Source: a bacterium (GTDB taxonomy: Bacteria; Verrucomicrobiota; Kiritimatiellia; CAIKKV01; CAITUY01). From it: a stretch of DNA of 43,516 nt. The stretch covers positions 1 through 43,516 of the forward strand of contig JBAWZF010000024.1 in assembly GCA_037143175.1 (NCBI GenBank). The letters are read 5' to 3'. Both the position numbers and the translations under genes were made by a program. Below the pieces are notes generated by a model. It saw only the letters and a program-made list of their open reading frames with translations, was not told the DNA's origin and made no database searches. This document shows, in pieces, positions 3,257 through 22,657 of this stretch. The number at the start of each line of letters is the position of its first letter. Position 1 is the first letter of the stretch.

Positions 3257-5818
3257 ATGGATAAGAAAACGATCTTTAAGTGGATGTTGCTGATTGTTCT
3301 GGTGGGGATGTCGGTTGCGATGGTTTTCCCCGTCAAGGATAAGGTTCGTTTTGGTTTGGATATCAAGGGCGGAACCAGCTTTACGGTGCAGATCGACGAA
3401 TCCGCCATGTCGGATCAGATCCGTGAGGAGATGAAGGCCAAGTTGGGCGCCGAAGATTTCGCCAAATTGTCTGAAGAGCAGGTCACGGTCCGCGTGAAGG
3501 ATCGGATGATCACTACCCTCAAGGAAGCCCAGGCACGGGCCATTGAAGTGATCCGGAATCGTGTGGATGGCCTGGGCATCGCCGAACCGATCATCTTCCC
3601 GGAGAAGGATAATCGCATTGTCGTTCAGCTTCCCGGCGTCGATGAAAAGAAGCGTGATGAAGCGGCGCGTATGCTCAAAGAAGCGGCCTTCCTTGAATTC
3701 CGCATGGTTCACGAAAAGAATTCTGAACTGATCAATAAACTGTTTGAGAAGGGTGTTGCGCCGGAAGGGTACAAGATTATGTCCCTCGCCGATGGCGGCG
3801 CTTCCCGCGAATATCTGGTTCGTGACCGGCAGGCCGTTCCAGACGAAAAAATGGATTCCACATTCCGTGCGAAGGTGTCACTTTTCAATGCCCCCCGACG
3901 CTGTGAACTCCTTTTTGAAAAACAGAAAGTGGGCGGACGTGAAGCGTTCATGCCTTATTATGTCGAAAAAACGGCGCAGTTGACGGGCGATACCCTGAAG
4001 CGTGCCACGGTGGATACCCAGGGCGTCGGGCAGTCGGTTGTCAGTCTTGAGTTCAATCCCGAAGGATCCCGTAAATTTGCGCGGGTAACCGGCGAATATG
4101 CGCCCGGTGGAGCCAAGAACCCGGGCCCCGTTGGTCGTCAGATGGCGATTGTGCTTGATGGTTCACTGTATTCCGCCCCCGTGATCAAAGAGGCCATTCA
4201 TGGCGGACGTGCGGTCATCAGCGGTAGTTTCACCTTCAGTGAGGCCCTGTTCCTGACCCATATTCTGAAGGCTGGCTCACTGCCCGCCCCCGTTGAAATT
4301 GTTGAACGCCGGGTGGTAGATCCCACACTGGGTAAGGATTCGGTTACCAGCGGTATGAATGCCGGTCTGTATGGCTGTGTGGTGATCATTATCCTGATGG
4401 CACTTTATTATCTGGTCAACGGCTTGCTGGCCGATTTGGCGCTGATCCTGAATGTGGTGTTGTTGCCCTTGGGCATGATCGTGGTGGCCGGTATTCTCGG
4501 GATGTTCTCCAGTGATGCCCGGGCCGGAAGCGCCATAGCCCTGCCGGTGTTGACGTTACCGGGTATTGCGGGTATTGCCCTGAGTATTGGTATGGCCGTG
4601 GATACGAACGTTCTGATTTTTGAGCGTATTCGTGAGGAAATCAAGGGCGGCAAGAGCCTCAAGGCGTCCATTGATGCCGGTTTTTCACGTGCCTTTGCGG
4701 CGGTGTTTGACTCCCATGTGGCCACCATCTTGACGGCCGTGATCATGTTTATTTTTGGATCAGGCCCGGTTCGTGGCTATGCCATCACCTTGATTGCCGG
4801 TCTGTTGATCAATCTTTATACCGCTGTGACGGTCACCCATATGTGCCATATGCTGATCGCTGAACGGACCAACAAAGTATCCATCATGAAGATGTTGTCG
4901 TTTATTCCTGAGACGAATTTCGATTTCATCGGGAAATGGAAATGGATGCTGGGGGGCACCTTTGCGGTAGTGGTGGTCTCCTGGACCTTGATGATTGGTC
5001 ATGGGATGAAAGATAAATCGAGTGTCTTCGGCGTGGACTTCACAGGGGGAACGCAGTTGACGATGAGCTTTCAGGACAAGCCTGAAATCGATGGCGTCCG
5101 TAATGTTTTGACAGGCGGCGGGATTAAAGATCCGTCTATTCAATTCCAGAAGGGCATGGAGGCCGGGACGCGCGAGATTCTTTTGGTTAAGGTTGCAACG
5201 TTGGAAGAAGGCAAGCAGGTTGAATCTTTGCTCACCACCAAGATTCCCCAGGCAGGCTTCAAGCTGATGCAGCAGGACGATGTAGGCCCTCAAATCGGAA
5301 AGGAATTGAAAGCGCGTGCCGCTTGGGCAATTATCTTGGGTACGTTGGCCATGGTTATTTATATTGCCTTCCGGTTTGAATTCGGCTTCGGGCTTGGAGC
5401 CGTGGTGGCGACCATTCATGATGCCATGATTACAATCGGTATCTGCCATCTGTTTGGCTTCCCGATCACGATGACGCTGATCGCCGGGGTACTGACCATT
5501 ATTGGTTACTCGAGCAATGATACGGTGATTATCTTTGATCGAATTCGCGAAAATCTGCGCCTTTATCGGGGCGGCCAGACCTTCAAGGAATTGTGTAATC
5601 ATAGTATTAATCAAACCCTGTCCCGTACGTTGCTGACCAGTTCCTTCACTCTTGTGTCGGTGCTGTTCCTGCTCATTATGGGGGGTGGCGCATTGAAGGA
5701 CTTCTCTGTTGCCATGTTGGTGGGTATGATCACGGGTACCTACTCAAGTATCTATATTGCCACTCCTGTAACCTTGGCCTGGTACCGCTGGAAGGCCCCG
5801 GATCTCGGACAGAAATAA
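3257..5818 (+). CDS. secDF: Fused protein translocase subunit SecDF
   Basis: Membrane subunit that uses the proton-motive force to help complete protein export. At 853 aa it joins a SecD half (first helix, FGLDIKGGTSF, large periplasmic domain, then the RND-type membrane block with AVDTNVLIFERIREE at about 450) to a SecF half (FGVDFTGGTQL, then GYSSNDTVIIFDRIREN at about 755). Both halves keep the conserved aspartate-rich fourth-helix motifs. SecD and SecF are separate in many bacteria; a single fused chain is frequent in Bacteroidetes, the PVC group and some Firmicutes. The ATG has GAGGAG upstream. yajC lies directly before and recJ only 5 bp after. Confidence 0.97.
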   Translation: MDKKTIFKWMLLIVLVGMSVAMVFPVKDKVRFGLDIKGGTSFTVQIDESAMSDQIREEMKAKLGAEDFAKLSEEQVTVRVKDRMITTLKEAQARAIEVIRNRVDGLGIAEPIIFPEKDNRIVVQLPGVDEKKRDEAARMLKEAAFLEFRMVHEKNSELINKLFEKGVAPEGYKIMSLADGGASREYLVRDRQAVPDEKMDSTFRAKVSLFNAPRRCELLFEKQKVGGREAFMPYYVEKTAQLTGDTLKRATVDTQGVGQSVVSLEFNPEGSRKFARVTGEYAPGGAKNPGPVGRQMAIVLDGSLYSAPVIKEAIHGGRAVISGSFTFSEALFLTHILKAGSLPAPVEIVERRVVDPTLGKDSVTSGMNAGLYGCVVIIILMALYYLVNGLLADLALILNVVLLPLGMIVVAGILGMFSSDARAGSAIALPVLTLPGIAGIALSIGMAVDTNVLIFERIREEIKGGKSLKASIDAGFSRAFAAVFDSHVATILTAVIMFIFGSGPVRGYAITLIAGLLINLYTAVTVTHMCHMLIAERTNKVSIMKMLSFIPETNFDFIGKWKWMLGGTFAVVVVSWTLMIGHGMKDKSSVFGVDFTGGTQLTMSFQDKPEIDGVRNVLTGGGIKDPSIQFQKGMEAGTREILLVKVATLEEGKQVESLLTTKIPQAGFKLMQQDDVGPQIGKELKARAAWAIILGTLAMVIYIAFRFEFGFGLGAVVATIHDAMITIGICHLFGFPITMTLIAGVLTIIGYSSNDTVIIFDRIRENLRLYRGGQTFKELCNHSINQTLSRTLLTSSFTLVSVLFLLIMGGGALKDFSVAMLVGMITGTYSSIYIATPVTLAWYRWKAPDLGQK

Positions 5819-11779: not shown

Positions 11780-12370
11780 ATGAAGAATCGAGTGGCTACA
11801 GTGGCGCGGAAAACGCGCGAGACAGACATTAAAGTTTCGGTCAATCTTGATGGGAGCGGAATCAGTAAAATTGAAACGGAGATGCCGTTTTTGAGCCACA
11901 TGCTGGAATTATTCTCCAAGCACTCACTGATCGACCTCACCGTGGTGGCAAATGGGGATCTGGAAGTCGACTATCATCACACGGTTGAGGATCTCGGGCT
12001 GGTGCTCGGGGATGCGATTGATCAGGCGTTGGGTGACCGTAAGGGCATTGTGCGCTATGGATCGGCTTATATTCCCATGGATGATGCCTTGAGCCGGGCG
12101 GTAGTGGATTTGGGAGGGCGGCCTTTTATGGTTTATGACGTAGCCAACCGGACCCGCAAGATCCGTGATTTTGACTTACTGTTGATCCGTGAGTTTTTTC
12201 AGGCCTTTACCGTGAAAGCTCGCATGAATCTGCACATTGCCCAGCTCTATGGAAAAGAGCCGCACCATGCCTACGAAGCAATTTTCAAGGCGGTCGCCCG
12301 TGCGATGAGTGCCGCCTGCCAGAAGGATGCACGCGTCAAAGGTGTGCCCTCAAGTAAAGGGGCCATTTAA
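11780..12370 (+). CDS. hisB: Imidazoleglycerol-phosphate dehydratase
   Basis: Mn-dependent dehydratase of histidine synthesis (imidazoleglycerol phosphate to imidazoleacetol phosphate). The 196-aa protein is the monofunctional form without the N-terminal phosphatase of the E. coli enzyme. Metal-binding motifs DYHHTVEDLG and PHHAYEAIFKA are present, as is the terminal SSKG. The ATG has GGGAG 9 bases upstream. hisA starts two bases after its stop; hisH, hisF and the other his genes are not in the window. Confidence 0.97.
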   Translation: MKNRVATVARKTRETDIKVSVNLDGSGISKIETEMPFLSHMLELFSKHSLIDLTVVANGDLEVDYHHTVEDLGLVLGDAIDQALGDRKGIVRYGSAYIPMDDALSRAVVDLGGRPFMVYDVANRTRKIRDFDLLLIREFFQAFTVKARMNLHIAQLYGKEPHHAYEAIFKAVARAMSAACQKDARVKGVPSSKGAI

Positions 12371-12371
12371 G

Positions 12372-13109
12372 TTGAAAATATATCCAGCGATTGACCTTAA
12401 GGACGGCAAATGCGTCAGACTGCGTCAGGGTTTGGCTTCTGCTGTTACCGTTTATTCTGAAGATCCGGTTGCCATGGCGAAGCAGTGGGCCGATGCCGGC
12501 GGCGACTGGTTGCATGTGGTCGATCTGGATGGGGCGTTTGCCGGGCACCCTGTTCATCATGAAGTGATCAAGGCCATGGCGGCCGCCATTTCCATTCCCT
12601 TGGAATTGGGTGGGGGACTACGTACGGATGCCGACATCCGTCAGATGCTCGACGCAGGTGTGAGCCGGGTGATTCTGGGAACGCGGGCCTGTGCCGATCC
12701 CCAGGCGCTGGCTGATTTGGTAAAGGTTTTTGGTGACCGGATCGCTGTTGGCATTGATGCCCGTAAGGGGAAAGTTCAAGTCAAGGGTTGGGTGGAAACC
12801 ACCGATACGCTGGCCGTCGATCTCGCCGTGAAGGTCGCTGCGGTGGGTGTGCGTACCATCATTTATACCGATACGGCCACGGATGGCATGTTGACGGGGC
12901 CGAATCTCGAAGGTGTACGCCTTCTATGCCGGGCGGTGAAAGCCAATGTCATTGCCTCGGGGGGGATTTCTAAATGTGAGGATATTGCCGCACTGGCGGC
13001 TTTGAAGCTTTCCAATCTCGATGGCGTTATTGTGGGGAAAGCCCTCTATGAAGGGGCCGTCACCATTCCCGCCATGCGGGCGGTGGCTGGATCGGCTCCC
13101 TGCGCATGA
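12372..13109 (+). CDS. hisA: ProFAR isomerase HisA
   Basis: Catalyses the Amadori rearrangement of ProFAR to PRFAR in histidine synthesis. The start is read as TTG at 12372, one base after the hisB stop, with AAAGGGG 9 bases upstream. This gives the family-standard KIYPAIDLKDGKCVRL start and 245 aa. An earlier in-frame ATG (12309) would translate the end of hisB and is rejected. Catalytic Asp residues fall at D8 and D129 (VGIDARKG), the same numbers as in characterised HisA, and TDGMLTGPN and IASGGISK are present. The stop overlaps the next ATG. Confidence 0.95.
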   Translation: MKIYPAIDLKDGKCVRLRQGLASAVTVYSEDPVAMAKQWADAGGDWLHVVDLDGAFAGHPVHHEVIKAMAAAISIPLELGGGLRTDADIRQMLDAGVSRVILGTRACADPQALADLVKVFGDRIAVGIDARKGKVQVKGWVETTDTLAVDLAVKVAAVGVRTIIYTDTATDGMLTGPNLEGVRLLCRAVKANVIASGGISKCEDIAALAALKLSNLDGVIVGKALYEGAVTIPAMRAVAGSAPCA

Positions 13110-14389
13110 TGATCAATTCCAAATGCGAACGGCTTCCCTCCGGGATTCGTGTGGTGACGGCGCCCATGCCGCACGTCGAAAGCATTTCGATGGGAGTCTG
13201 GGTGGGCGCAGGGGGGCGGTGTGAGGCGGCGGCCCAGTCCGGGGTCAGTCATTTTCTGGAGCATATTCTTTTCAAGGGAACCACCCGCCGTACAGCCCGT
13301 GAAATCTCGCAGGCCATTGAGGGGCGTGGCGGGGACATCAATGCCTTTACCCAGGAGGAAAACACCTGTTATTACGCCCGTGTGGCGGCGGCCCATTCCT
13401 GGCAGGCGTTGGATGTTCTCCTAGATATGATTCAACATCCCCGTATGTCTCCGGTGGATATCAAAAAGGAGCGGGACGTCATCATTGAGGAAATCATGAT
13501 GGTTCGGGATCAGCCCCATCAGCAGGTGGAGGAAACGCTGGGTGAGCTGATGTGGCTGAATCACCCACTGGGTCGGCCCCTGGCTGGCACTTGTGAGACT
13601 GTGAAGGCCATCGGGCGCGAGGAGTTGCTGGCTTACAAGGCTAAGCATTATGTCCCCGCCAATATCGTTGTGGCGTTTGCGGGCAAATTGGATCATGCCG
13701 CCTGTGTTGAGCGCGTGCAGGCGGCCTTCCCTGAGAAGGGGCGGGCGCTGCCACTGCCGTTTGCCCCGCTGGGTAAAGGCGTGAAGCGCAAGCCGCTGGA
13801 CGTGCTGTCAAAAGAGGTGGAACAGGCGCATATGGCATTGGGCTTCCGTACCTTTGGACGCAGGGATCCCCGCCGGTTTGCGTTGAAATTATTCAGTGTC
13901 ATTTTAGGTGAGAACATGAGCTCGCGCTTGTTTCAGGTCGTGCGGGAGCAGTATGGCCTGGCCTATGCCATTCAATGTGGCGGACATATGTTTCATGATA
14001 CCGGTGGGTTTGTAATTACCGGTGGGTTGGATCGGACCCGTTTGGAGCGTGCGATGGCGTTGATTGCCCGTGAGTTGCGCCGGATTAAGGAAACACCGGT
14101 GGGTAAGCGGGAGTTGGAGCGGGCCCGTGATTATTCCATCGGACAGATTCAATTGGGATTGGAAAGTACGACGAGTCAGATGATGTGGATTGGCGAACAC
14201 ATCCTGGCTTACGGTCGTGTGAAAGCTCCGGAAGAGGGCATTGAATCGTTGAAGAAGGTGACAGCCGCCGAGATTCAGCAGTTGGCATGTGAGATTCTGC
14301 GTCCTGAGCACGCCAGTCTTGCCATGGTCCTGCCGGATGCGGGTGGACGTGTGAATGCGAAACTGGAATCCTGGTTGGGCACCTTTTGA
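13106..14389 (+). CDS. M16 family zinc metallopeptidase (processing-peptidase type)
   Basis: The 427-aa protein belongs to the single-chain M16B group, related to mitochondrial processing peptidase beta and bacterial PqqL/YmxG-like proteases. The inverted zinc motif HFLEH places H49, E52 and H53, and a third ligand E129 lies 76 residues after H53, the spacing expected for M16. R and Y residues of the C-terminal half (SSRLFQVVREQYGLAY) are also typical. It appears catalytically intact. No signal peptide is seen, so it is probably cytosolic. It overlaps hisA by 4 bases and is followed by an SDR gene. The substrate is unknown. Confidence 0.93.
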   Translation: MMINSKCERLPSGIRVVTAPMPHVESISMGVWVGAGGRCEAAAQSGVSHFLEHILFKGTTRRTAREISQAIEGRGGDINAFTQEENTCYYARVAAAHSWQALDVLLDMIQHPRMSPVDIKKERDVIIEEIMMVRDQPHQQVEETLGELMWLNHPLGRPLAGTCETVKAIGREELLAYKAKHYVPANIVVAFAGKLDHAACVERVQAAFPEKGRALPLPFAPLGKGVKRKPLDVLSKEVEQAHMALGFRTFGRRDPRRFALKLFSVILGENMSSRLFQVVREQYGLAYAIQCGGHMFHDTGGFVITGGLDRTRLERAMALIARELRRIKETPVGKRELERARDYSIGQIQLGLESTTSQMMWIGEHILAYGRVKAPEEGIESLKKVTAAEIQQLACEILRPEHASLAMVLPDAGGRVNAKLESWLGTF

Positions 14390-14396
14390 GGAGATT

Positions 14397-15131
14397 ATGA
14401 AACTTCGTGGAAAAACAGCATTAGTGACCGGTGGTGCCGTCAGGATTGGCAAGGCCATTTGTGAGGCGTTGGCGGATGAAGGATGTAATGTCGTCATTCA
14501 CTGCAGCCGCTCGATGTTGGCTGCCCAACAACTGGCCGTGATGATCCGCGAACGCGGGGTCAAGGCGTGGGTGGTACGTGAGGCGATTGACTCCGAGACT
14601 GATTGCCGCTCCTTGATCGCCGCTTCCCTCAAGCAGGCAAAGCACCTTGATATTCTGGTCAATAATGCCGCGGTATTCCACAAGAACGGACTGATGACTC
14701 TGACAGAGCGCAAGTTGAATGCGGAGTTGGGTATTAATTTTTTCGCGCCTATATTTCTGACGCGATTTTTTGCAGAGCAGGCGGAGCAGGGGGCCGTGAT
14801 CAATTTACTGGATCGGCGAATCCTGGCAAATGATATCGAGTGTATGCCTTATTCGCTGTCCAAAAAAGGGTTGGCGGCCTTTACTCAGGAAGCGGCCCTT
14901 GCATTGGCACCGGCTATTACCGTGAATGCTGTGGCACCCGGTGCCGTGTTGCCACCGCCCGGGAAGGGGTCGCAATATCTTTATGACCATGCGGGCCGGA
15001 TTCCGCTGAACCAGCGAATTTCGCCCCAGGACGTGGCGGCCGGGGTAGTGGCATTGTTGAGACTTGAGGGAGTGACCGGCCAGACACTTTTTGTGGATGG
15101 CGGACAGCATTTGCTTGGGAATGGCGTGTGA
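14397..15131 (+). CDS. Short-chain dehydrogenase/reductase, pteridine reductase (PTR1/FolM)-like
   Basis: NAD(P)H-dependent SDR of 244 aa. The cofactor motif is TGGAVRIG (TGxxxRxG, as in pteridine reductases); LVNNAA and the catalytic YSLSK follow. Where classical SDRs have a catalytic Ser, this one reads INLLDRR, with Asp, as PTR1 does (NMVDAM from memory). Other PTR1-like blocks are NFFAPIFLTRFFAE and IPLNQR. A dihydropteridine or related pterin substrate is therefore more likely than a fatty-acyl one, but this is inference. The ATG at 14397 has GAGGAG close upstream. It sits 7 bp after the M16 gene and 20 bp before the AraD-like gene. Confidence 0.85.
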   Translation: MKLRGKTALVTGGAVRIGKAICEALADEGCNVVIHCSRSMLAAQQLAVMIRERGVKAWVVREAIDSETDCRSLIAASLKQAKHLDILVNNAAVFHKNGLMTLTERKLNAELGINFFAPIFLTRFFAEQAEQGAVINLLDRRILANDIECMPYSLSKKGLAAFTQEAALALAPAITVNAVAPGAVLPPPGKGSQYLYDHAGRIPLNQRISPQDVAAGVVALLRLEGVTGQTLFVDGGQHLLGNGV

Positions 15132-15151: not shown

Positions 15152-15820
15152 ATGACGTATAAAGCTTTGCGTAAGGAAGTTTGTGATGCGAATCACGAAC
15201 TTCAGAACATTAACCTGACGTTTTTAGGGCGCGGTGAAGTGAGTGGACTTGATCGTGAGCGCGGGGTGATGGTCGTAAAGCCTGCCAGCATTTCCCATGA
15301 GCGGCTGATTCCGGAAGATATGCTGGTGTTGGATTTTTCAGGAACCAGACTGGAGGGGACTTTGGCCCCGAGTCCTGACGCCATCACGCATTTGTATCTT
15401 GCCCAAGCATTTATGGAGGTAGGCTTTATTGTCAGCAGTTTCGGCCCGCATACCGCCATGTTTGCCCAGGCCCTGCGGCCCATTCCCTGTCTGGGCTCCC
15501 TTCATGCTGCGCATTTCAAGGGGGAAATTCCAATCACGCGCATGTTGCGGAAACCGGAACTGGATCGTAGTTATGAAAAGAGTCTGGCGGCGGTGATTAT
15601 CGAACGTTTCGGGCGAATGGTTCACCTTGAAACGCCCGCCGTCCTGGTTGCGAGTCATGGTGCGGTAGCCTGGGGCCAAACCTCGGAGGAGGCGGTGCTT
15701 AAAGCCCGCGCGGTAGAGGAATTGGCGCGTATCGCTTTGGGAGCCTTGCAGCTGGCACCGACCATTCAACCTATTCCGGCCATGCTTGTTGAGCGTACTT
15801 TTGCCGATTACAGGAAGTGA
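15152..15820 (+). CDS. AraD-like class II aldolase/epimerase-fold protein with degenerate active site
   Basis: A 222-aa protein that aligns almost without gaps to L-ribulose-5-phosphate 4-epimerase (AraD), recalled from memory. Shared blocks are DRERGVMVVKP, SPDAITH, IPITR and LVASHGAVAWG. The zinc site is broken: positions equivalent to H95 and H97 are S95 and F97 (IVSSFGPHTA instead of IVHTHSRHAT). The catalytic D120 is A120 (LHAAHFKG) and the catalytic Tyr near the C-terminus is Phe. The third zinc His is kept at H169 and D76 is kept. It is thus unlikely to be an active epimerase or aldolase of the known type. It may be a pseudoenzyme or have a new activity, possibly with the SDR 20 bp upstream. 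The frame is intact and has a usable ribosome site (AAGGAT). Confidence 0.85.
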   Translation: MTYKALRKEVCDANHELQNINLTFLGRGEVSGLDRERGVMVVKPASISHERLIPEDMLVLDFSGTRLEGTLAPSPDAITHLYLAQAFMEVGFIVSSFGPHTAMFAQALRPIPCLGSLHAAHFKGEIPITRMLRKPELDRSYEKSLAAVIIERFGRMVHLETPAVLVASHGAVAWGQTSEEAVLKARAVEELARIALGALQLAPTIQPIPAMLVERTFADYRK

Positions 15821-15829
15821 ATTGGCGAA

Positions 15830-16924
15830 CTACACATACCCGGCACCGAACTTTGTGGCGACCAGCTTCTGCACTTCCTTGATGCTTTCGGCTTGATCGG
15901 CAGGGCAGATCAAGGTGGCTTCGGGCGTGTGAATCACCATGAGGTTATGACAGCCGACGGTGACAATCAGGTGCTTGGGATCGCTGGAGGCCACCAGCAT
16001 TCCCTTGCTATCCATGAGTAGTGATTTTCCTTCACCGATGGCATTCTGATTCTCGTCCAATGGGCAGGTTAGGGCAAACGATGGCCAGGATCCGACGTCC
16101 AGCCATTTGAGCGGCATGGGGACGGCTGCAACTTGGACTGCGGTGTCACGGGAGGCCGGCTCCATCACGGCAAAATCGACGCTGATTTTTTTCAGGGTGG
16201 GATAGATTTCCTCGATGACTTTCTGCTGTGATGGCGTTCCCCAGGCTGCGGCAATTTTCATGAGTCCGGCATGGTTTTCCGGATGATAGCGGCGCATACA
16301 GTCCAAGAGCGTGGAGGCGCGCCAGACGAACATCCCGCTGTTCCAAAGATATTTTGATGCGCCTGCCTTGAAATAATTTTCAGCCATCTCTGCAGCCGGC
16401 TTCTCTTTGAACTGATCCACAATCGATGCGCCGTTTCCGAGGGCTTTGCTGAGTTGCAGATAGCCATAGCCGGTGGCGGCGTGTGTGGGAGCTATGCCGA
16501 AGGTGACCAGGGTGCGTGGCATTTCTTCCGCCAGGCGGTAGCCCTGATCAACAATTTTAAGGAAATGATCGATGGGCTCAATAATGTGATCGGCCGTGAA
16601 GATGGCGATGACGGCAGCCGGGTCATTTTTTGCAAGGATTGCGGCGCTAAAGCCGACCGCATTCAGGGTGTCGCGAGCACAGGGTTCGCCTAGAAACTGA
16701 TTGGCTCCCAATTCGGGAAGCGCCTGTCGCATCAGGGGTTCCTGCTTATTGGAGGCGCAGATATACCGTTGAGCGGCGGGGACAAGTCCCTCCAGCCGCT
16801 GAGTGGCAATTTGGACGAGACTTTTCCCCTGAATAAACGGCAACAATTGTTTGGGTGTGGCTTCCCGGCTCATGGGCCACAATCGCGTTCCCGATCCTCC
16901 AGCCATAATCACAGCATATCTCAT
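15830..16924 (-). CDS. manC: Mannose-1-phosphate guanylyltransferase
   Basis: Makes GDP-mannose from GTP and mannose-1-phosphate for polysaccharide and glycoprotein synthesis. The 364-aa protein has the nucleotidyltransferase motif GGSGTRLWPMSR (9-20), the ATGYGYLQ block, FKEKP and NSGMFVWR. It lacks the C-terminal cupin isomerase domain of bifunctional ManC/AlgA, so it is the short, monofunctional type. GGGAG lies 8 bases before the ATG. It converges on the AraD-like gene with 9 bp between stops. It is the first sugar-nucleotide gene seen; a second nucleotidyltransferase lies at 35324. Confidence 0.93.
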   Translation of the reverse strand: MRYAVIMAGGSGTRLWPMSREATPKQLLPFIQGKSLVQIATQRLEGLVPAAQRYICASNKQEPLMRQALPELGANQFLGEPCARDTLNAVGFSAAILAKNDPAAVIAIFTADHIIEPIDHFLKIVDQGYRLAEEMPRTLVTFGIAPTHAATGYGYLQLSKALGNGASIVDQFKEKPAAEMAENYFKAGASKYLWNSGMFVWRASTLLDCMRRYHPENHAGLMKIAAAWGTPSQQKVIEEIYPTLKKISVDFAVMEPASRDTAVQVAAVPMPLKWLDVGSWPSFALTCPLDENQNAIGEGKSLLMDSKGMLVASSDPKHLIVTVGCHNLMVIHTPEATLICPADQAESIKEVQKLVATKFGAGYV

Positions 16925-21420: not shown

Positions 21421-21975
21421 ATGGCGAACAGTGCAGTATCAACCGAATCTTTTGGCAGCGAAAAGAAAGTCGAGCATAAGGGCCGGAAATTGAAAGTAGC
21501 CGTCGTTGGGTGCGGTGGTATTTCTGAATTACACCTGAGAACTTTTGCCAACATGCCGGAAGTCGAAATTGTGGCGGGCGTAGATATCAAGCCTGAGCGT
21601 CTGGCGGTGATGCAGGAAAAGTTCGGCATCAAAAAATTGTACAAAGACTGGAAGGTCATGCTGAAGGAAGTCAAGCCGGATGCCGTGGATGTCTGTACGC
21701 CCAATGGTGTGCATGCCCAGGCTGCGATTGATGCCTCCAATGCCGGTTGTCACGTTATCACCGAAAAGCCCATGGCCATGACTCCTGCGGAATGCGTCAA
21801 GATGATCGCGGCGGCCAAGAAGGCTGGCAAGTTGCTCGTGACCGGTTTCCAATACCGCTATCACCCTGTCACCCAGATGATCAAGCGTTTCCGTGATGAA
21901 GGCCAGTTCGGCAATATCATGTTTGTGAAATGTCAGGCGCTGCGTCGTCGTGGTATTCCCAACTGGGGCGTATAA
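21421..21975 (+). pseudogene. Gfo/Idh/MocA family oxidoreductase, truncated after the NAD-binding half
   Basis: The 184 codons match the N-terminal half of Gfo/Idh/MocA sugar dehydrogenases: VAVVGCGGISELH (about 27-38), VDVCTPNGVH, VITEKPMAM with the conserved EKP Lys, and TGFQYRYHP. The reading frame then ends at RRRGIPNWGV-TAA, while full members have about 340-400 residues. The substrate-binding half with its GGGxxxDxGxH motif is missing, so activity is unlikely. AAGGAG precedes the ATG, so expression signals remain. The TAA overlaps a perfect TATAAT (21971-21976) and the SOD gene begins 23 bp later. This looks like a deletion that joined this gene to the sod upstream region. Confidence 0.8.
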
Positions 21976-21997
21976 TAATTCTGAACAGGCGGTCAAT

Positions 21998-22657
21998 ATG
22001 CGACGTCAGATATTGTGTGGTGTGGGGGTTGGGATGTTGGTGGCCTGTAACGGGTGGGGTGCATTTCAGTTGCCGCCCCTGCCTTATCCCGAGAATGCGC
22101 TGGAACCCTCCATTTCGGCTCGAACGATGAGTTTCCATTATGGCAAACACCATAAGGGCTATGTGGATGCCTTGAATAAACTGATCGCGGTTTCGGAATT
22201 GGAGTCTATGCCCCTGGAAGAGATCATCAAGGTGACCACGAACTCCAAGGACAAGGATGGGCCTGCGGTTTTTAATAATGCCGCACAAATTTGGAACCAC
22301 ACATTCTTTTGGAACAGTATGAAGCCGAATGGTGGGGGTAAGCCATCAGGGGTATTGCTGGAAAAGATCGAAAAATCTTTCGGGAGCTTTGAGAAATTCC
22401 AGGAGGCCTTTTCCGCGGCAGCATTAAGTCAGTTTGGCAGTGGATGGGTGTGGTTGGTGATGGAGGGGGATGGCCTGCAGGTCATCAAGACGTCCAATGC
22501 GGATACTCCTTTGGCGCATGGGCAGAAGGCGCTGTTGTGTTGTGATGTCTGGGAACACGCTTATTATCTCGATTATCAGAATCGCCGCAAAGATTTTGTG
22601 GCGGTATTTTTGGAAAAACTCGTGAACTGGGACTTTGCCGCCGCGCAATTAAAGTAA
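21998..22657 (+). CDS. sodB: Iron-type superoxide dismutase with lipoprotein signal peptide
   Basis: Dismutates superoxide to oxygen and peroxide. All four metal ligands are present: H47, H101, D183 and H187 (DVWEHAYY). The Gln in NNAAQIWNHTF (Q97) is the iron-enzyme type. The first 22 residues form a signal peptide with MRR, a hydrophobic core and a lipobox LVAC (C17), so the enzyme is probably exported and lipid-anchored. Most Fe-SODs are cytosolic. The ATG at 21998 is chosen because an upstream frame from 21950 only reads the truncated gene before it. A TATAAT lies 22 bp before the start. The stop overlaps the start of the GH20-like gene by one base. Confidence 0.9.
   Translation: MRRQILCGVGVGMLVACNGWGAFQLPPLPYPENALEPSISARTMSFHYGKHHKGYVDALNKLIAVSELESMPLEEIIKVTTNSKDKDGPAVFNNAAQIWNHTFFWNSMKPNGGGKPSGVLLEKIEKSFGSFEKFQEAFSAAALSQFGSGWVWLVMEGDGLQVIKTSNADTPLAHGQKALLCCDVWEHAYYLDYQNRRKDFVAVFLEKLVNWDFAAAQLK

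Follow-up and report, generated by a model that had tools for sequence, protein, structure and literature searches.

An AraD-like protein without its metal site, acid/base and catalytic tail is conserved in one genus of Kiritimatiellia

What keeps an enzyme gene in a genome once its active site has been lost? The question is raised by an open reading frame on contig JBAWZF010000024.1 (assembly GCA_037143175.1; the whole 43,516-nucleotide stretch analysed is called the window) from a member of an uncultured PVC-group genus of the Kiritimatiellia, whose genome, G000, is a 3.3 Mb draft in 107 contigs. The product of 15152-15820 belongs to the class II aldolase/adducin family by both profile and fold, matching Pfam Aldolase_II (PF00596) with 93.3 bits (cut-off 22.2, E=2e-26) over profile positions 2-183 of 183. 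Models of AraD (L-ribulose-5-phosphate 4-epimerase) are its top curated matches, at scores short of their equivalog and subfamily cut-offs (185.8 bits, cut-off 257; for TIGR00760, 179.6 bits, cut-off 389.1), and E. coli AraD (1JDI/1K0W) aligns to it over residues 5-215, nearly the whole length. The AraD homology assigned by the original prediction, which had been made from the letters alone, is thus sound. The features discussed below are listed in Table 1.

Table 1. Features of the window and related loci of the genus; residue numbers in the first column are those of the window protein
Feature	Position	Strand	Remarks
AraD-like CDS (putative pseudoenzyme)	15152..15820	+	222 aa, class II aldolase/adducin fold, no catalytic C-terminal tail
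Glu29 codon	15236..15238	+	canonical N28, phosphate-pocket position; E/E/G/G/A in the clade
Ser95-Ser96-Phe97 codons	15434..15442	+	replace the zinc motif HxH (H95, H97)
Ala120 codon	15509..15511	+	replaces catalytic D120; A/A/R/R/G in the clade
His169 codon	15656..15658	+	third zinc ligand kept (E. coli H171)
Early stop	15818..15820	+	Y229-bearing tail missing in 5/5 orthologues; convergent manC stop 1-31 bp away
PTR1/FolM-like SDR	14397..15131	+	named from best matches; immediately precedes the AraD-like CDS in G000 and G004 alone
manC-type mannose-1-phosphate guanylyltransferase	15830..16924	-	convergent neighbour in 5/5 genomes; named by eye from sequence
hisB, hisA and M16-type peptidase genes	11780..14389	+	precede the SDR in this order, also in G004; identified by eye
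Classical araA-araB-araD operon loci	L043:5342-9323; L040:4342-8349		

Catalysis by AraD depends on D120 and Y229 (PMC5434028). Aligned to canonical AraDs, the window protein has Ser, Phe and His at the zinc triad (H95/H97/H171) and Ala at D120, so that the substitutions originally called at H95, H97 and D120 are borne out. The accompanying claim that the catalytic Tyr had become Phe was wrong, as this Phe aligns with Y219 and the C-terminal tail bearing Y229 (canonical ...RKHGxxAYYGQ) is missing altogether. D76 and the third zinc His (H169) are retained. Further losses affect N28 (Glu), S44 (Ala), S75 (Pro), T116, T117 and T145; we take N28, S44, G45, S74 and S75 to be the phosphate-binding residues of the AraD/FucA structures.

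Orthologues are present in four of the five other genomes of the genus (G004, 77% identity; G003 and G002, 55%; G001, 50%), which rejects a chance mutation or assembly error in a single genome. In the fifth, G005 (78% complete), the contig with prfC breaks off within that gene at base 4717, and no match to manC was obtained; G005 was rejected as a genome without the gene, since its assembly does not cover the site. H95, H97, D120, N28, S44, T116, T117, T145 and the Y229 tail are absent from all five orthologues, and S75 is kept in one. No tail-coding sequence occurs in the frames downstream of any of the five genes, and a tail hidden behind a frameshift was rejected on this ground. Since 30 canonical AraDs show little or no variation at the lost residues and all five orthologues lack them (S75 excepted), the loss pattern, judged from the alignment, is beyond chance. 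Canonical AraDs have 62 nearly invariant columns, of which 26 are retained and 14 have been lost in all five orthologues. The enrichment of losses in active-site over other invariant columns is borderline (Fisher p 0.055; 0.022 without the tail); the 13 active-site columns include phosphate-pocket residues as assigned above. The replacements differ between genomes (H95 to S/S/N/N/T and H97 to F/Y/Y/Y/Y), with position 97 Phe or Tyr in every clade member. Thus, the S95/F97/A120 pattern that was to be sought in homologues recurs as loss at the same positions, but not as the same letters, and the window copy is not a lone altered gene among homologues that keep HxH.

In the collections searched, the degenerate form looks restricted to this genus. 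Against 84,980 species genomes, a single-sequence scan gave no match and a profile scan returned only three records, matching genus genomes G002, G001 and G003. Across 388 genomes of the phylum, E drops from about 1e-125 to 1e-91 at the next best matches. A quick motif scan of the 29 best-match loci found two to be degenerate genus copies; 26 of the other 27 have the HxH-S and THAD motifs, among them L112 with an odd C-terminal end, and L116 has no readable ORF. AraD-like genes also occur on about 40 viral contigs (L093-L097, L127-L167), with HTHS and YYGQ in the five translated.

The fold is predicted to be intact. AlphaFold2 with 30 sequences gave a pLDDT of 96.1 (50 with four sequences) and a pTM of 0.92, part of this confidence being borrowed from active relatives, as most rows of the alignment are viral active AraDs. 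The model matches AraD (1JDI/1K0W) best (Z 35.7, 1.0 Å over 220 residues), followed more remotely by FucA, pyruvic oxime dioxygenase and adducin, and the structure prediction that the original note had called for returned an intact AraD fold. With the metal ligands, acid/base and tail lost, AraD chemistry appears implausible, and the protein is probably not an epimerase; on the precedent of adducin it would still assemble as a tetramer. We favour, at a probability of roughly 0.6, a metal-free pseudoenzyme that serves in binding or as a scaffold, possibly a bacterial parallel to adducin, because adducin provides a precedent for a non-catalytic tetramer on the same fold. Like the adducin aldolase domain in animals, the protein would bind a partner protein (or a ligand), using a surface that has become conserved in the clade; for this surface we propose K123, R139, K143 and S144 together with the RPIPCLG..HA..FKGEIPxTRxLRKPE stretch. 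Residues 111-140 are the most constrained part of the clade, and its new invariants include F24, H49, K123, R139, K143 and S144. Against the binding reading stand the smallness of the clade (five genomes of one genus), neighbouring genes that offer no functional clue, and H49, D76, H118 and H169, which are invariant in all five orthologues and could form part of another site.

These same four invariants speak for the reading that the protein is still an enzyme with a new substrate, either metal-free or with its metal site relocated to residues such as these. H49 in particular is gained, Tyr being present there in 28 of the 30 canonical AraDs, and the fold has been reused elsewhere, e.g., by the Fe(II) pyruvic oxime dioxygenase, even if the three metal histidines are kept in that case (PMC11841055). 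However, the phosphate-pocket positions and the acid/base are gone and the old ligand positions vary freely. Because the replacements vary across the clade, the alignment argues against a new catalytic set at the lost positions. We consider a surviving enzyme unlikely.

The origin of the gene bears on a further alternative. In an IQ-TREE phylogeny the five orthologues group together (100/100), and their sister group is the native AraD found in the family's other genera (96/82), which shows the gene to descend from the family's native araD. In G007 and G008 this native AraD lies in an operon with isomerase-like and ribulokinase-like genes; several genomes across the order and class have this isomerase, conserved at 62-80%, but the best matches in the six genus genomes reach only 27-29%, so that none is a close homologue. 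In its place the genus has araA, araB and araD in a classical operon, and the AraD of this operon clusters with the E. coli protein in the tree, so that the native isomerase-kinase-AraD operon has apparently been replaced. The probable order of events is operon replacement, move and site decay: the genus ancestor would have lost the native arabinose operon, with an unrelated araA-araB-araD operon in its place; the native araD would have been relocated beside manC; and it would then have lost its metal site, phosphate pocket, acid/base and catalytic tail, its product being retained as a metal-free class II aldolase fold. In the sister-genus genome G006, no AraD-like gene was found beside manC.

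Four genomes (G000, G001, G003 and G004) carry both the active and the degenerate AraD, which would suit a regulatory subunit that joins the cell's own active AraD in mixed tetramers. In class II aldolases the active sites are located at subunit interfaces (PMC5434028), and in trypanosomes the AdoMetDC prozyme, itself catalytically dead, activates the paralogue with which it pairs (PMC5201418). But G002 (89% complete) keeps the degenerate gene with no match to araB or active araD and only a marginal 24% match to araA, and the two AraD proteins are only 39% identical. A role in mixed tetramers is therefore improbable.

The gene is under strong purifying selection. For the AraD-like gene, omega is 0.06-0.08 between G003 and G002 (dS 0.34-0.36, unsaturated) and 0.10-0.11 between G000 and G004, these being the only two pairs used as dS is saturated for most others and itself high for G000/G004 (1.2-1.4). 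The SDR and manC give comparable values, 0.06-0.09, for the same two pairs, and the active AraD gives 0.036 for G000/G004. An enzyme homologue without catalytic residues, selected across five orthologues at an omega of about 0.06-0.11, fits the description of a pseudoenzyme, as originally proposed. The alternative that the gene is a dying, functionless remnant of the operon replacement draws on its protein evolving faster than its neighbours (77% identity in one pair, compared to 90% for the SDR and 86% for manC). Yet the protein is clearly constrained despite this faster divergence. The reading frame is intact in all five genomes, free of frameshifts and internal stops, the omega values largely refute decay, and a sigma70-like site lies close upstream in G003 (one found, 0.1 expected by chance), with similar sequence visible upstream in G001 and G002. 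A dying gene is thus very improbable.

The genomic neighbourhood gives no functional partner. The shared neighbour manC is convergent and so offers no operon clue. The gene was originally placed in an operon with a PTR1-like reductase; in the window the SDR does lie directly upstream, but this linkage holds in only two of five genomes (G000 and G004, with a gap of about 20 bp), and the expectation that the AraD-like gene would always follow the SDR fails. In G001-G003, the AraD-like gene stands alone between a divergent prfC-like gene and manC, and the SDR is on another contig, in runs of his genes. G003 shows the complete order hisDCBA-SDR-pcnB; elsewhere in the genus, too, the SDR follows hisA, with hisB upstream in G002, G003 and G005. 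A pterin or folate role alongside the FolM/PTR1-like reductase, e.g., as a dihydroneopterin-aldolase-like protein, takes some support from folB directly following the SDR in many genomes of the class, but is scarcely credible, as three of the five genomes have the SDR and the AraD-like gene at separate loci, and the aldolase role itself was rejected on a standard FolB being encoded elsewhere in all six genus genomes. We caution against annotating the gene at 15152-15820 either as AraD or as a member of a pterin operon.

Some other features of these regions were observed. In G000 and G004, hisA and the SDR are separated by an M16-type peptidase gene (13106-14389 in the window), and in G003 the SDR follows hisA directly, with no such gene between. 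G003 has a second manC copy (L080; G003:C242:27704-28792) of 69% identity, with none of the other queried genes within 12 kb around it. At 21421-21975 of the window, an ORF for a 184 aa oxidoreductase-like protein, by eye a truncated Gfo/Idh/MocA gene, overlaps the start of a superoxide dismutase-like ORF (21950-22657).

How an enzyme fold becomes a non-enzyme usually has to be pieced together from ancient and indistinct events, that of adducin among them, whereas the loss here is recent. Active orthologues persist in sister genera, the five dead ones provide replicate outcomes, and the probable trigger, the replacement of a pathway operon, is legible in the genomes, which makes the question of what keeps a dead enzyme alive a testable one. 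Tentatively, the case may be either a counterpart of adducin, in which a displaced catabolic AraD became a metal-free binding tetramer, or a new enzyme whose site has been rebuilt, in one genus and with active ancestral forms in its sister genera.

Compared to known systems, the protein is closest to E. coli AraD (1JDI/1K0W), with which it shares the full-length fold at 37% identity, D76 and the third zinc His, and from which it differs in lacking H95, H97, D120, N28, S44 and the Y229 tail. The trypanosome AdoMetDC prozyme (PMC5201418) is likewise a catalytically dead paralogue retained in the genome, but its fold is unrelated and it has an active partner, of which G002 shows none. The pyruvic oxime dioxygenase (PF00596; 18% identity) is another class II aldolase fold turned to a different function, though it keeps all three metal histidines (PMC11841055). 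The aldolase domain of adducin is reported to be a tetramer without catalysis, and the Trichoplax adducin is divergent at two of the three histidines and was modelled without metal (PMC12599920). Our model resembles that domain in fold (PDB 8IAH; Z 21.1, 2.6 Å), whereas adducin is eukaryotic, part of a larger actin-binding protein and only 14% identical, and an independent origin from AraD is likely.
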